DNA from: Halovenus carboxidivorans
GTDB lineage: Archaea; Halobacteriota; Halobacteria; Halobacteriales; Haloarculaceae
Assembly (NCBI RefSeq): GCF_009831575.1
Contig: NZ_WUUT01000005.1
Coordinates: forward strand, 1-64,000
DNA: 64,000 nucleotides
Direction: 5' to 3'
Part shown: piece after piece, positions 24,566-33,832 of the stretch
How the letters are laid out: the number at the start of each line of letters is the position of its first letter
Numbering within the stretch: the first letter of the stretch is position 1
Notes under the pieces: model-generated
Database searches by the model: none
Seen by the model: the letters and a program-made list of their open reading frames with translations, nothing else
Told to the model about the DNA's origin: nothing
Translations under genes and position numbers: made by a program

Positions 24566-27106
24566 ATGGTCTCGTCGGAGCGGTCACAGTCCGAAACAGT
24601 CGGGATCGTACTCCTGACTGCGGTCGTCGTCGTGACCGCGACGACAGCCGGGCTGTTCGTCCTCTCCGATACCGACGACCGACGGGAGGGAGACCCCCTC
24701 GCGAACGTCGAGGTGACGCCGACGGCCTCGGGGATCGAACTGGCACACCAGGGCGGCGACGAGTTCAACGCCAGCCGGATTCGGGTGGTCGTCGAACGCG
24801 AGTCCGGTCCCGACCAGCGGTTCGTCCTCGCGGAGGCGTTCGATCCGGTCGACGGCGATGGCGACCAGTTCGCTCCGGGACAGCGGTGGGTGCAGTCGAC
24901 CGGCGACAGCTATCAGGGGAGAGTCGACGTGACCGTCGTCGCGGTCGACCGCGGTCAGATCCTCGCTCGGGCTACCGCGGTCGTCGGTTCCGCGGGGCTC
25001 GAACTCGATGTCGAGGAGACGACAATCAGCGACGCCGGATCGACGAACTACACGGTGACACAGCTGTTCGAGCAGGCCGAGCCCGAGGATGTCACAGCGA
25101 ACGCGACGGTGACAGTCGGCAACGAGTCCGTTCTCGATGTCGACGCGGCGAACGCGACGCTCGTCGGCAACAACACCGGGTCGACGACTGTCACGGCCAC
25201 GTACGACGGTGAAACGAGCAACACCATCGAAGTCGATGTCGTCGAAGACGGCTCGCTCGAAGTCGTCGCCTTCGAGCACGACAATCCCGTCGTGCCCGGA
25301 GACGTACTGAACATCACCGTGACCGTCCGCAACTCGGGCGCGACGGCGGCGAGTGGGACGGTCAGCATCCAGCGCAAACGCGGCAGAGCCGCGGGGTTCT
25401 CGCCGTCTGGACTCTCCGAGGAACTGCGTCTCGATGGGGGCGAGACGACCGACGTCGAGTTCGACTACCGGGTGGTCCGGGCCGATGCGGTCGTCTCGCT
25501 GTTCAGACTGCGAGCCGTCACCGCCGACGACCGCAGAGGCAGAGGGGACGACATCGAAGCCAGACTCCCGACGGCGAACGTTCAGGTCGATGCGCTCTCA
25601 CTCTCGGACACTCCGCCGTACGTGGTCGGTGAGCCACTCACCGCGGAGGTGACGCTCCGAAATGCCGGGGAACGGGCCGCGACGGGCGACCCGGTCAACC
25701 TGACTCTCGGCTCGAAGCGAACACGGGCCACAGTGTCGGGACTCGCACCCGGACAGACCGATACCGTCTCGCTGTCAGTGACGCCGACAGCCCCGGGTCG
25801 GGACAGGAGGCTCACCGTCCGCACGCCCGACGACGCGCAGAATCAGACCGTCGACGTGTTCGAGCCAGCGAGCTTCGAGGTGGCCGCCCTCACGGTGGTC
25901 GAAGACCAGGTGCTCACCGGCGAAAACCTGACCGTCCGCGCGGTGATCGAAAACACCGGCGGCCTCGACGGGACCCAGACCGTTGTGCTCGATACGGGGA
26001 GTGCGATCAGCCCGGTAGACGGGACGGAGACGGTGACTCTCAGCGGCGGCGAACAGACGACAGTGACCCTGACGGCGACGGGGACCGCTCCCGGGACCGC
26101 ACCGATCAGCGTCGAGACCGCCAACGACAGTGCCGGAACGAGGGTAACGGTACTCGATCCTCCCGAGTTCAGCCTCGAAGAGGTGCCGGACCGAGTGACG
26201 GTGCTCGCGGGAGAGCCGGCGAGCATCGCGTTCACCGTCGTGAACGCCGGCGACGTGGCACAGACCCAGCGTATCGAACTCACGCTCGGCGGTCAGACAG
26301 TCGACCGGACGACGGCGCGACTCGCCGGCGGCGAACGCCGCTCCGTGACGCTCAACTGGACCACAGGAGACGACGACGTCGGAACGCAGGCGCTGACTGT
26401 GTCGACGGCGAACGAAAGCGAATCCGTCGCCGTCGTCGTGCAGGATCCGATCGGGGACGTGACAATTCTCTCGACGAACGCCCCAATCGAAGAGGGCGAG
26501 CGACTCGACGTGACCGCGACGACCGGCGGCGTGTACGGTGACGCGCTTCAGTTGTCCGTCGATGGCTCTCCCGTGAACGCGACCACGGACACTGACGACG
26601 AGGTCACACTCTCGTGGGAGGCGGCCCGAGGTGACGCGGGCCGACGGACGGTGACGGTGACGCTGTACGAACTCATCGACCTCGGATTCGTCCAGATTCC
26701 GGTGTTCGTCGGCGAAGACAGTACCACGGTGACGGTCGAACCGCCGGTGTTCTCCGTCGGGAACCTCTCCGCACCAGACCGAGCAGCGACTGGTGGCTCC
26801 ATCACGGTCGGTACGAACGTGGCGAACGAGGGGCTGGTGACGAGCGAGCAGTCCGTCGAACTCCGAATAGGGTCGGATCTGAACGGGACCGCGGGCGAGA
26901 GTTACACGGTCCTCGCGGATCGAACGGTCGAGTTAGCGGCTAATACGAGCGAGCGCGTCGCGTTCGCGAACGTGACAGTACCGGACGACACCGACATCGG
27001 ACGGCGGGAGATCGGAGTCTACACCGAGGACGACGGGGTTACCGCGGAGATTCAGGTTCGTCCCGGGTCGCAGCCGCTGGTCGGTACGGATCAACTCGGG
27101 CGTTGA
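24566..27106 (+). CDS. Pilin-anchored CARDB/Ig-repeat surface protein
   Basis: An 846-residue protein. The N-terminus (MVSSERSQSETVGIVLLTAV, then VVVTATTAGLFVL) looks like an archaeal type IV pilin class III signal followed by the pilin helix, so PibD-type processing and pilus or membrane anchoring are plausible. Residues about 45-145 form the pilin head; 155-230 resemble a BIG2 Ig-like domain; 231-835 hold about six CARDB-like modules with repeated NxGxxxx(T/S)G-type turns (VRNSGATAASG, LRNAGERAATG, IENTGGLDGTQ, VVNAGDVAQTQ, VANEGLVTSEQ). There are many N-x-S/T sequons. Most haloarchaeal pilins are under 200 residues, so this is an exceptionally long one. Probably an adhesin or surface fibre. 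Confidence 0.75.
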   Translation: MVSSERSQSETVGIVLLTAVVVVTATTAGLFVLSDTDDRREGDPLANVEVTPTASGIELAHQGGDEFNASRIRVVVERESGPDQRFVLAEAFDPVDGDGDQFAPGQRWVQSTGDSYQGRVDVTVVAVDRGQILARATAVVGSAGLELDVEETTISDAGSTNYTVTQLFEQAEPEDVTANATVTVGNESVLDVDAANATLVGNNTGSTTVTATYDGETSNTIEVDVVEDGSLEVVAFEHDNPVVPGDVLNITVTVRNSGATAASGTVSIQRKRGRAAGFSPSGLSEELRLDGGETTDVEFDYRVVRADAVVSLFRLRAVTADDRRGRGDDIEARLPTANVQVDALSLSDTPPYVVGEPLTAEVTLRNAGERAATGDPVNLTLGSKRTRATVSGLAPGQTDTVSLSVTPTAPGRDRRLTVRTPDDAQNQTVDVFEPASFEVAALTVVEDQVLTGENLTVRAVIENTGGLDGTQTVVLDTGSAISPVDGTETVTLSGGEQTTVTLTATGTAPGTAPISVETANDSAGTRVTVLDPPEFSLEEVPDRVTVLAGEPASIAFTVVNAGDVAQTQRIELTLGGQTVDRTTARLAGGERRSVTLNWTTGDDDVGTQALTVSTANESESVAVVVQDPIGDVTILSTNAPIEEGERLDVTATTGGVYGDALQLSVDGSPVNATTDTDDEVTLSWEAARGDAGRRTVTVTLYELIDLGFVQIPVFVGEDSTTVTVEPPVFSVGNLSAPDRAATGGSITVGTNVANEGLVTSEQSVELRIGSDLNGTAGESYTVLADRTVELAANTSERVAFANVTVPDDTDIGRREIGVYTEDDGVTAEIQVRPGSQPLVGTDQLGR

Positions 27107-30373: not shown

Positions 30374-32248
30374 ATGGGTGACGGCGAGGGGTTCGAGAGC
30401 TGGCTCGGCGCGGACCTGACCTATCTCGTCCTCGCTCTCCTCTCGCCGGTTGCGGTCGTCCCGCTTTTGATCCTCGGCGTGATCTGGGTACTGGTGTTCG
30501 GCATCCCCTTCCTCATCGTCGACTGGCTGCTGTCGACGCTGCTCGGGGAAGGACTCGTCTACACGCTCGTCACGTTCGTCGCGCTGCTCGTCTTCGTCGG
30601 TGTCTACTTCGGATTCATAGCGGCCTATCTGTGGGGATTCGTCCTGATCGCCCCCTCGGACTTACCGTCTGCGCCGCTCCGACGTGCCCTGTGGGCCGGT
30701 GTTCCGGTCGTTCTGGCGGTAGCAATCGGATACTGGATACTGACCGGTGCCGAGATCACCACGCGCACCGAGTTTATCCTCATGTTCACCGCAGTCGGCT
30801 TCGCAGCGATGGTGATCGTCAGTCGGGCGCGGGTGATACTCACTCGGCTGGCCGGAGCCGTCGGAACCGAACCGGTCGGGTTGTCGGGATATTTCTCCAT
30901 GTTCGCCGTCGTCGCCGGCGTCATCGAGGTCGTGACGCTGTTTTTCGATCTGCCGGGGCTGGTCGGGCAGGATCCCTCCGACTGGGCCGGGATGATCCTG
31001 GTGTACATCCTCCCCTTGCTCGTGGTCGGGCTGTTTCAGGAACTCGGGGTCGTCGCAGAATCGAGCGACAGCGTCTCGCTCTCCGAGTTCGCGGACCAGA
31101 CGCCGCTGTTTTTCGACGCGACCACCGGCGAGGGGATGTTCGTCTCGCTGGTGATCGCGTTCGTCGGGCTCCCGCTCGCGCTGTCGGCGCTCGAACTCTC
31201 CTGGTACGGGGGTCGACTCGGCGTTCGGGCGGCCCGCGGCGGCGAGTTGGATCTGCCCACGTTCGCCCGAAGCGACGGGTCGGCCGATAGCTCGGGGAAG
31301 CAGGACGACCCTTCCCTCGGGACTCGAATCGTCTCTCAGACCAGCAGCCTCCTCGGAAACCGGGAGGAACCTGACCGGACACAGCGGGAGACGACGACAC
31401 AGCAGCCGACGGCGGACCGCGGGCTGTCGGAATGTTACCCCGAACTGTTGGCAAGTGACGGGAGCCTCGACGTGGGACAGGTCGAGGACAGCGCATCGTA
31501 TACGGCGAGTGACGCTGTCGCGGTGTACACCCGCAGTCGAAGCGGGCGTGACGGGACTCGTCTCCTCACGCCGAATCCGGAGCGGCGGGTCACGGATGCC
31601 GTCGAGGAGGCGTTTCTCGACCGGGTCCGAACGTGGCAGACCGTCAGTTCACATCCGAACGTCTGTACCGTCTACGAGTTCGGACGCGACCCGCAGCCGT
31701 GGGTGCTGGCCGAAAACCCCGCCGGAGTGCGGTTGGCGGAGTCGCTACTCGAACTGGACGTCGAGAGAGGTCTCGACGTCTTGCAGGACACCGCCGAGGC
31801 AGTTCGCCAGATTGGGCTGTACAACGAGGTTCACTCGAACGTCTCTCCGAGTCACATCTGGCTCGTCGACGACGACGGCCCCTCCGTCCGCGTCGACGAC
31901 TGGGGAGTCGAACGGGCGGTCCGCTGGGCGCTCGGGGAAGATTTCCTGACGCCGTACACCGCCCCGGAACAGATCCGCGGGACGGCCGTGAACGAGCGGA
32001 CCGATGTCTACGGGCTCGGGGCCGTTGCCTACCACGTTCTCAGCGAGCGACCGCCCGTCAATCGGGATCGGGACGCAATCTTAGCCGGAGAGTTCGACCC
32101 GCCGAGCGCGGTGGCGTCCGGGGCCGAGCGCGAACGGATCGAGCCGTTCGACGAGCCGATCATGACCGCGTTACGGAGAGACGCCGACCAGCGCCACCGG
32201 ACGGTCCAGGCGTTCAAGCAGGCGCTACTGCGCGCGGAGCGGGGTTAA
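30374..32248 (+). CDS. Membrane-anchored protein kinase-like protein, probable pseudokinase
   Basis: A 624-residue protein. Residues 1-290 hold about six to eight membrane segments (for example LTYLVLALLSPVAVVPLLIL, LVYTLVTFVALLVFVGVYFG). Residues 300-365 are a polar linker. From about 370 the sequence follows the protein kinase fold: HSNVSPSHIWL stands where HRDLKxxN is expected, VRVDDWGVERA where DFG is expected, YTAPEQIRG is the APE segment, and RTDVYGLGAVAYHVLSERPP the helix F Asp. The VAIK lysine is not identifiable (TASDAVAVYTRSR), and catalytic Asp and Asn are replaced by Asn and His. So it is likely catalytically dead or very unusual. Monocistronic; shares 4 nt with the convergent glutaredoxin-like gene. 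Confidence 0.75.
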   Translation: MGDGEGFESWLGADLTYLVLALLSPVAVVPLLILGVIWVLVFGIPFLIVDWLLSTLLGEGLVYTLVTFVALLVFVGVYFGFIAAYLWGFVLIAPSDLPSAPLRRALWAGVPVVLAVAIGYWILTGAEITTRTEFILMFTAVGFAAMVIVSRARVILTRLAGAVGTEPVGLSGYFSMFAVVAGVIEVVTLFFDLPGLVGQDPSDWAGMILVYILPLLVVGLFQELGVVAESSDSVSLSEFADQTPLFFDATTGEGMFVSLVIAFVGLPLALSALELSWYGGRLGVRAARGGELDLPTFARSDGSADSSGKQDDPSLGTRIVSQTSSLLGNREEPDRTQRETTTQQPTADRGLSECYPELLASDGSLDVGQVEDSASYTASDAVAVYTRSRSGRDGTRLLTPNPERRVTDAVEEAFLDRVRTWQTVSSHPNVCTVYEFGRDPQPWVLAENPAGVRLAESLLELDVERGLDVLQDTAEAVRQIGLYNEVHSNVSPSHIWLVDDDGPSVRVDDWGVERAVRWALGEDFLTPYTAPEQIRGTAVNERTDVYGLGAVAYHVLSERPPVNRDRDAILAGEFDPPSAVASGAERERIEPFDEPIMTALRRDADQRHRTVQAFKQALLRAERG

Positions 32249-32559
32249 AAGAACACCGACAGCAGCCGCCCGATAACGCCGGATGGGGGCGGCGATTGCC
32301 CGTCGCCGTACTCCTCGTAGAGATACTCGACGATGTCGTCGCTTTCGGGCATGCCTTCGATCCCGTTGGTTCGGTCGACCAGCACCGGGACCTGATACTG
32401 ACCGCTGACCTCGTAGACCTCGCTGCGCTGGCTCCGCGAACTTGGCACCGACCGCGACTCGTACGAGAGGTCGAGATCGGAGAGCGCACGGCGCACTTTC
32501 GCACAGTAGGGGCAACTCTGGAGTTCGTACAGGACCAGATCGGGATTGCGCTCGCTCAT
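32245..32559 (-). CDS. Glutaredoxin/GST N-terminal-like thioredoxin-fold protein
   Basis: A 104-residue protein with a thioredoxin fold: YELQSCPYCAKVRRALSDL contains the CPYC redox pair near residue 16, and QVPVLVDRTNG the cis-proline loop near 56. Haloarchaea use gamma-glutamylcysteine or other thiols instead of glutathione, so the reductant is unknown. Cytosolic. The ATG at 32559 gives MSERNPDLVLYE; longer upstream frames are basic and rejected. It converges on the pseudokinase gene with a 4-nt overlap of the stops. Confidence 0.82.
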   Translation of the reverse strand: MSERNPDLVLYELQSCPYCAKVRRALSDLDLSYESRSVPSSRSQRSEVYEVSGQYQVPVLVDRTNGIEGMPESDDIVEYLYEEYGDGQSPPPSGVIGRLLSVFF

Positions 32560-32740
32560 ACTCGTACGGACGGCCGCCTCGTACAAAAAGAAAAACCGGG
32601 CGTGCCCGCCGGCCGCACAGCGGAGTGAGTCGCTTCGCTGAGACGACTGCGGGACGACACAGAACGGCCGTACGCAGTCTGAACGCGGCCGGTCGGAACG
32701 ATACCAACAGCCCTTATTCGCTCGACCGGGTAGTACGAGT

Positions 32741-33832
32741 GTGACCGATTCGCTGTTTAGTTCGTTTTCGCTGCGTGGCACCGAGTTCAGAAACCGAGTG
32801 ATGCTCTCGCCGATGTGCCAGTACTCCTCGGAGGACGGACTGGCCAACGAGTGGCACCGCGTCCACCTCGGCACGCGCGCGGTCGGCGGTGCAGGAATGG
32901 TGATGATGGAAGCGACCGCGGTCGAACCTGACGGCCGGATTACGCCCCACGACCACGGCATCTGGTCCGACGAGCACGCCGAGGCGCTCGAACCGATCAC
33001 GGAGTTCATGCGCTCGCAGGGGGCGATGCCGGGCATTCAACTCGCCCACGCGGGCCGGAAGGCCTCGACGAGACGACCGTGGGAGGGGCGCGGACCGATC
33101 CAGCCCGAGGACGGCGGCTGGGAAGTGCTCGCGCCCTCCGAGAAGCCGTATCCCCACGAGGAGGGGACAGTGCCGACTCGTCGGATGGACACCGGCGACA
33201 TCGACGCCCTCATCGAGCAGTTCGGCGCGGCCGCCGAACGCGCCCTCGATGCCGGCTTCGAGGTGGCCGAGGTCCACGCGGCCCACGGCTATCTCCTCCA
33301 CGAGTTCCTCTCGCCGGTGACGAACGACCGCGAGGACGAGTACGGCGGGAGTTTCGAGAACCGAACGCGGCTGGTACGGGAGGTGACCGAGCGCGTTCGG
33401 TCGGTCTGGCCGGACGACAAACCCGTCTTCGTCCGGATCTCGGCGAGCGACTGGCTTCCCGACCGGCCCTCCTGGGACATCGAGCAGTCCGTCCGTCTGG
33501 CCGACCAACTGGACGACCTCGGCGCGGATCTGATCGACGTTTCCGGCGGCGGCATCCACCCCGATCAGCGGATTCCGAGCACCGGACCGGGCTATCAGGT
33601 GCCATACGCAGAGGAGATCCGTTCGGAGACGGACATCCCAGTTGCGACCGTCGGCGGAATCACCGAACCGGAGCACGCGGACGCGCTGGTACGCAACGAG
33701 CGGGCCGATCTGGTCGCGCTCGGCCGGGAGATGCTCCGGAACCCGTACTGGCCGTTGCAGGCCGCTCACGAACTCGGCGAGGAGATCGAGTGGCCGCCGC
33801 AGTACCGCCGCGGCCGGTTCGACCGCGCCTAG
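32741..33832 (+). CDS. Old-yellow-enzyme NADH:flavin oxidoreductase (YqjM type)
   Basis: A 363-residue FMN barrel enzyme. It shows the YqjM-like blocks NRVMLSPMCQYSSEDG (Cys modulating FMN), GMVMMEATAVEPDGRI, IQLAHAGRKASTRRPWEG, AAHGYLLHEFLSPVTN, and YGGSFENRTRLVREV. The C-terminus has DLVALGREMLRNPYWPL. Such enzymes reduce activated C=C bonds of enals, enones and some nitro-compounds using NAD(P)H. GTG start at 32741. It overlaps the convergent hypothetical gene by 4 nt. Physiological substrate unknown. Confidence 0.9.
   Translation: MTDSLFSSFSLRGTEFRNRVMLSPMCQYSSEDGLANEWHRVHLGTRAVGGAGMVMMEATAVEPDGRITPHDHGIWSDEHAEALEPITEFMRSQGAMPGIQLAHAGRKASTRRPWEGRGPIQPEDGGWEVLAPSEKPYPHEEGTVPTRRMDTGDIDALIEQFGAAAERALDAGFEVAEVHAAHGYLLHEFLSPVTNDREDEYGGSFENRTRLVREVTERVRSVWPDDKPVFVRISASDWLPDRPSWDIEQSVRLADQLDDLGADLIDVSGGGIHPDQRIPSTGPGYQVPYAEEIRSETDIPVATVGGITEPEHADALVRNERADLVALGREMLRNPYWPLQAAHELGEEIEWPPQYRRGRFDRA

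Follow-up and report, generated by a model that had tools for sequence, protein, structure and literature searches.

The 624-residue product of an open reading frame in the window (the whole 64,000-nucleotide stretch of DNA analysed) carries an N-terminal membrane domain and a C-terminal domain that, judging by its sequence and modelled fold, is almost certainly a pseudokinase. The protein groups with a clade of receptor-like pseudokinases from haloarchaea, apart from intact kinases, and relatives in this clade adjoin operons for the tubulin-superfamily protein FtsZ-like-1 (FtsZl1) in other species.

Gene and domain organization

The features of the gene are listed in Table 1. The ORF opens with an ATG, a start backed by the two homologues of the N-terminal domain, whose first residue aligns with it. 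Its GC3 equals that of the neighbouring genes, and the gene therefore looks native and intact. It is flanked by a cation-efflux-like gene on one side and an old-yellow-enzyme-like gene on the other, and signalling genes do not flank it.

A convergent ORF (32245-33036, minus strand) encodes a glutaredoxin/GST-N-like stretch, and its end overlaps the stop-codon region of the pseudokinase gene. Elsewhere in the window, positions 24566-27106 (plus strand) encode an 846-residue protein in which CARDB-like repeats come after a pilin-like N-terminal signal/TM (MVSSERSQSETVGIVLLTAVVVV). By eye, this gene lies directly upstream of the genes for methylmalonyl-CoA mutase and epimerase.

Table 1. Coordinates of the gene and of the parts of its predicted product
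Feature	Position in window	Strand	Basis
Gene for the predicted membrane-anchored pseudokinase, 624 aa, stop included	30374..32248	+	ORF, Pfam, fold model
N-terminal multi-helix membrane domain, residues 1-285	30374..31228	+	Hydropathy, homology to G196 kinases
Linker, acidic, rich in Ser/Thr/Gln, residues 286-365	31229..31468	+	Sequence
Predicted pseudokinase domain, residues 366-624	31469..32245	+	Pfam, PDB search, AlphaFold2, Foldseek
Pro400 in place of the VAIK Lys	31571..31573	+	Alignment to intact haloarchaeal kinases
Arg417 in place of the helix-C Glu	31622..31624	+	Alignment
Catalytic loop, degenerate, HSNVSPSHI, residues 487-495; HRD Asp replaced by Asn489, Asn by His494	31832..31858	+	Alignment
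DWG, residues 509-511, usual haloarchaeal form of DFG	31898..31906	+	Alignment
TPYTAPEQ, residues 526-533, activation-segment/APE motif	31949..31972	+	Alignment

A kinase fold without its catalytic residues

The C-terminal part of the protein matches two Pfam families, PK_Tyr_Ser-Thr and PF00069 (Pkinase), the latter with E=7e-9 and a score that exceeds the gathering cut-off. A PDB sequence search retrieved PknB (E=1e-15). An AlphaFold2 model of residues 366-624, built on an input alignment of 21 window/locus domains, reached a pLDDT of 91.9 and a pTM of 0.90 and displays the two-lobed, kinase-like order of strands and helices. Compared with the PDB by Foldseek, the model best matches PknB of M. 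tuberculosis and Stk1 of S. aureus (TM 0.76). The earlier note had proposed a C-terminal kinase fold from the letters alone and had named an HMM comparison and a structure prediction as checks; both returned a kinase fold, with no sign of a non-kinase one.

Read in the register of intact haloarchaeal kinases, the VAIK Lys, helix-C Glu and HRD Asp are replaced by Pro400, Arg417 and Asn489, the catalytic-loop Lys and Asn by Ser491 and His494, and the Gly-rich loop is absent. This agrees with the same note, which had read the HRD Asp and the following Asn as replaced and had failed to find the VAIK Lys. His487, Pro492, D509-W510-G511, A530-P531-E532 and the helix-F Asp544 are retained. Our alignment departs from the note over DWG, which it had taken as a departure from DFG: the Trp is present in 57/57 active haloarchaeal kinases, and we reject DWG as a sign of degeneration.

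As in pseudokinases generally, a kinase fold is combined with the loss of the VAIK Lys and HRD Asp, the DFG Asp being kept (Asp509); the VAIK Lys, HRD Asp and Asn that mark an active Hanks-type Ser/Thr kinase are all missing. Because the DFG Asp is kept, the domain may still bind nucleotide to some residual extent.

The membrane domain and its homologues

Hydropathy analysis places seven membrane segments at residues 31-49, 65-83, 105-123, 134-152, 173-191, 208-226 and 255-273, and a weak eighth, at about 15-33, is visible in one homologue. The N-terminal half had been described from sequence as a multi-helix membrane domain, and this description holds. A positive loop after segment 4 is at odds with a simple hydropathy count of the segments. 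Residues 1-365 have no Pfam match, and so neither a MurJ/MviN flippase nor any other transporter or channel domain was found there.

Among 391 genomes across the class, only two convincing homologues of residues 1-300 were found, both in G196, a genome from another family. Each is about 1170 residues long and aligns from residue 1 (E=2e-37 and 1e-32; 32-33% identity), with many Gly, Pro and Trp residues invariant between them and our protein. A scan of genome contigs gave no further homologues, and G196 is the only one of the 125 genomes of its family to have them. Both proteins end in intact kinases (GSGGNATVHKA, ALKEP, HLDIKPENI, ADWG), and their genes adjoin a PP2C-like gene and further kinases. 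Since the same membrane domain occurs in the 624-residue protein and in the intact G196 kinases, this sensor has been combined with live as well as dead kinases. Homologues with an intact VAIK Lys and HRD Asp had been named in the earlier note as evidence against a pseudokinase. None occurs among the kinase-domain relatives in the pseudokinase clade described below; the G196 homologues of the N-terminal domain are intact, with kinase domains that fall in the active clade of the tree.

The extent of this conservation (seven or eight shared membrane segments and 32% identity over the entire domain) also speaks for a different reading, in which the protein works through its membrane domain, as a transporter or channel, and the pseudokinase serves for regulation or recruitment. 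There is a precedent in mycobacterial MviN, whose pseudokinase domain recruits an FHA protein (PMC12599244). We consider this reading unlikely for the protein studied here: no Pfam transporter or channel family matches, the fold model of the membrane domain, made from three sequences, is too weak to reveal its identity (pLDDT 46), and most clade members carry single-pass or extracellular sensors.

A haloarchaeal clade of receptor-like pseudokinases

From haloarchaeal loci we gathered 139 distinct kinase-like domains, and a tree was built on 118 of them. One branch (SH-aLRT 97) separates 52 rows, including the 624-residue protein, from 57 intact kinases and nine separately degenerate ones. Under a mixture model, applied to a 63-row subset, the clade again lies on one side of a branch (support 84). 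Like the other members, the protein has lost the Lys and carries an activation segment of the TPxTAPEQ type (TPYTAPEQ, 526-533). The earlier note had called a membrane pseudokinase of this design unusual for archaea, a view that does not hold for haloarchaea, where relatives are found across numerous genomes, frequently more than one in each.

Residues were counted across clade and active rows in a global MAFFT alignment. None of the 52 clade rows has the VAIK Lys (Leu in 35, Val in 10, Ile in 3, Pro in 3, Thr in 1), which is found in 46/46 active rows covering that column, and the helix-C Glu is mostly replaced by Ala, Val or Thr. The HRD Asp is kept in 8/52 rows, the Asn in 8/52 and the DFG Asp in 28/52, with changes to Gly, Asn or Glu at that position. 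Both the HRD Asp and the Asn survive in only one row, which lacks the Lys, and no row has all four catalytic residues (0/52). The alignment of homologues proposed in the earlier note thus shows the loss itself to be conserved.

Other positions are under constraint. W510, G511, P531, E532 and Pro492 are near-invariant in both the clade and the active kinases. Specific to the clade are D472, E475 and Y483 in helix E, and T526, P527 and T529 in the activation segment, the last three being conserved among the pseudokinases and not in active kinases. This pattern suggests selection on a changed binding surface rather than decay. The 624-residue protein sits on a long branch (0.97), and its function may therefore be drifting. 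That branch, and the strong variability of the catalytic positions, would also fit a kinase domain that is a decaying, functionless remnant. Such a remnant is hardly credible given an intact ORF with native GC3, a confident fold, conserved positions specific to the clade, and the persistence of the whole clade across families.

Retention of a non-canonical transferase activity, through AMPylation or relocated residues as in SelO or Fam20-type atypical kinases, is very unlikely. The DFG Asp persists in 28/52 rows, our protein included, and a Peripla_BP_6-type member in G079 still has HLDLKPDN. Against this, the Lys is lost throughout, the Gly loop and helix-C Glu are gone, the catalytic Asp and Asn vary, and so does the DFG Asp. 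In the pocket region, conservation extends to no other polar residue, and the clade-specific sites map to helix E and the activation segment. The G079 member in question (G079:C19:13757, L080; 758 aa) lacks the VAIK Lys and, from its motifs, appears to be an intermediate stage of catalytic loss.

According to Pfam, clade members are fused to PBP_like_2, SBP_bac_5, Peripla_BP_6, SBP_bac_1, PQQ/beta-propeller, CARDB, PKD and CarboxypepD_reg domains, and two halocyanin-like modules were recognized by eye. Some members have multi-TM regions, and most have single-pass or extracellular sensor domains. The host has paralogues of this kind, a PBP_like_2 fusion at C2:487931 and a CARDB fusion at C5:272154. 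As predicted from sequence, the architecture of the clade is like that of receptors.

Two further groups of kinase-like genes were observed. A second family of degenerate kinases occurs in the host (G000:C3:259930 and C2:474538; L068, L071) and in G011, G012, G015, G017, G021, G023, G028, G074, G079 and G141. Its members have about 450-530 residues, possibly a HEAT-like N-terminus, and the motifs VHGGIDPxNVAYY and LLDNVGLL, with the Lys changed to Arg, the HRD Asp to Gly, and Asp residues displaced by a few positions; they could be pseudokinases, or kinases with relocated residues. In G120 (C1:1462000-1501800; L147, L148), at least eight kinase-like genes lie within 40 kb, most of them catalytically intact.

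Kinase complement of the host genome

PF00069 has seven matches in the host genome (98% complete): five degenerate proteins, one Bud32/LPS-kinase-like protein and one UbiB/ABC1 protein. A profile of intact haloarchaeal kinases added one degenerate protein. This protein (G000:C1:218669, L209; 852 aa), with HGSLTPGHV and LDWAL, carries the sixth degenerate kinase-like domain of the host. Neither HxDxKPxN nor YxDxKPxN codon patterns were found in the genome, nor was any PP2C, and by profile and motif no intact canonical Hanks-type kinase was detected. RIO kinases are expected in all archaea, as is well established (PMC1262709). The kinases left in the host would be atypical ones only, Bud32/LPS-kinase-like, UbiB and, presumably, RIO.

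Across genomes, HxDxKPxN occurs in 17/146 and YxDxKPxN in 61/146, the latter mostly in a YRDLKPEN/DN kinase family. On the latter count we rejected the broader proposal that active kinases are missing from most genomes with pseudokinases. We limit the statement that Hanks kinases are missing to genomes with neither motif (G000, G003, G074, G098, G099 and others).

Allosteric control of a partner kinase is a common mechanism of pseudokinases, as in HER3 and STRAD, and the 624-residue protein might likewise pair with an active kinase. G196 joins the same membrane domain to intact kinases beside a PP2C-like gene, and the YRDLKPEN kinase is present in some other clade-bearing haloarchaea. We nevertheless judge such pairing improbable, as the host has no canonical HRD/YRD Hanks kinase or PP2C by profile or motif, and G003, G074, G098 and G099 carry clade members with no such kinase found.

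Genomic association with FtsZ-like-1 operons

Pseudokinase genes lie near an FtsZ-like-1 operon in at least 11 genomes. In G074, they flank genes for a Tubulin_2 protein of about 1052 residues (PF13809, E=3e-12), a P-loop membrane GTPase of about 482 residues and a single-TM protein. The same trio also adjoins clade pseudokinase genes in G079 (two operons), G141, G152, G159, G309, G356 and G420, and in G153, G281 and G412 a Tubulin_2 gene lies about 4-5 kb or less from clade pseudokinases. Operons of this type with pseudokinase clusters were seen at loci L058, L063, L064, L061/L243, L246-L249 and L257, and in G079 each of the two operon copies has its own pseudokinases.

The host also carries the whole trio, at G000:C2, 392-398.5 kb. 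Its FtsZl1 has 1051 residues and is 59% identical to that of G074, and the GTPase and TM genes accompany it. The pseudokinase gene is not adjacent but on C5, and any meeting of the products would therefore take place in trans.

Co-occurrence was compared in two families. In the host's family, closely related FtsZl1 (57-65% identity, or the query itself) is present in 7/146 genomes and strong pseudokinase matches in 8, with an overlap of 6 (Fisher P=1.6e-8, thresholds post hoc, kinship uncorrected). In another family, FtsZl1 occurs in 10/12 clade genomes versus 23/170 overall (P=1.5e-8, again with post hoc thresholds and kinship uncorrected). Both P values are only indicative, because the cut-offs were chosen once the data were known and genomes that share ancestry do not count as independent. 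FtsZ-like-1 was not detected in G103 and G106 (88% and 79% complete) despite strong clade matches. Many single-copy clade members of about 460-500 residues also occur without it (G011, G012, G015, G018, G027 and others), and in G014 the operon is present with no clade member detected.

A comparable locus is on record. In Halorhabdus utahensis, the FtsZl1 locus (Huta_2050-2056) includes a membrane-associated GTPase and, around the 1051-residue Huta_2051, three PK genes named protein kinases by Makarova and Koonin in 2010 (PMC2875224). It resembles the G074 locus, both having an FtsZ-like-1 of about 1051-1052 residues and three kinase-like genes. The accessible text calls the PK genes protein kinases and does not discuss catalytic loss, whereas the G074 and other clade copies lack the catalytic residues. 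Unlike the PK genes of H. utahensis, the gene for the 624-residue protein lies outside any FtsZl1 locus. That FtsZl1 is the partner of this protein has, in our estimate, slightly less than an even chance.

Discussion

A signalling scaffold, as suggested in the earlier note, is our best guess for the mechanism of the 624-residue protein. It is probably a non-catalytic receptor or adaptor, and on balance we favour one that possibly feeds the FtsZ-like-1 machine in trans. We infer the cytoplasmic placement of the kinase domain, the sensing of a ligand or the membrane, signalling through binding in place of phosphorylation, and the identity of the partner. The N-terminal domain would sense the membrane or be anchored in it. 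The cytoplasmic pseudokinase domain, for which canonical phosphorylation would be impossible, would work as a protein-binding switch or scaffold and, by binding, would recruit or release a partner. The best candidates would be the products of the FtsZ-like-1 (Tubulin_2)/membrane GTPase/single-TM operon, met in trans, and they are candidates because clade members adjoin that operon in other haloarchaea. More tentatively, haloarchaea may possess a receptor system free of phosphorylation, in which arrays of receptor pseudokinases, their sensors exchanged between binding proteins, propellers and membrane domains, would relay external signals by binding to the FtsZ-like-1/GTPase membrane machine, in some species without any Hanks kinase.

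Membrane pseudokinases are known from bacteria, among them MviN and EssB (PMC12599244). Actinobacterial MviN/ActPs3 likewise joins a multi-pass membrane domain to a degenerate Hanks-type domain, but it has a MurJ-like flippase domain, other substitutions, an activation-loop deletion and a PknB partner, and it is bacterial (PMC12599244). Receptor Ser/Thr kinases of the bacterial PknB/StkP type provide the closest solved folds and share the receptor-like layout of a cytoplasmic kinase with an external sensor, whereas the haloarchaeal clade has lost the active site and has no PASTA-repeat sensors. Eukaryotic receptor pseudokinases (HER3, ROR, plant RLK) also couple an external or membrane sensor to a dead kinase domain and signal by binding. 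The likeness in architecture implies no common descent, and the host has no detected active partner kinase.

Pseudokinases as such are a known kind of protein; the haloarchaeal clade is apparently undescribed before, as far as the open literature goes. We found there, with most subscription journals lying outside it, no paper on haloarchaeal pseudokinases and no account of the receptor-like clade, of a sensor common to it and live kinases, or of the FtsZl1-associated PKs as pseudokinases. A survey from 2005 counted one Halobacterium kinase-like sequence without the catalytic Asp and, in its accessible part, gives no further analysis of it (PMC1262709).

For the proteins annotated as Ser/Thr protein kinases in haloarchaeal FtsZ-like-1 loci, phosphorylation is not to be assumed. 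The usual explanation of pseudokinases is that they regulate active kinases. Receptor-like pseudokinases that outnumber active Hanks kinases, and in some genomes occur without them, would clearly exemplify a kinase fold that serves purely as a signalling adaptor. The genomic link gives FtsZ-like-1, a tubulin-superfamily system with no known trigger, candidate inputs, and the idea is testable in cultivable haloarchaea.
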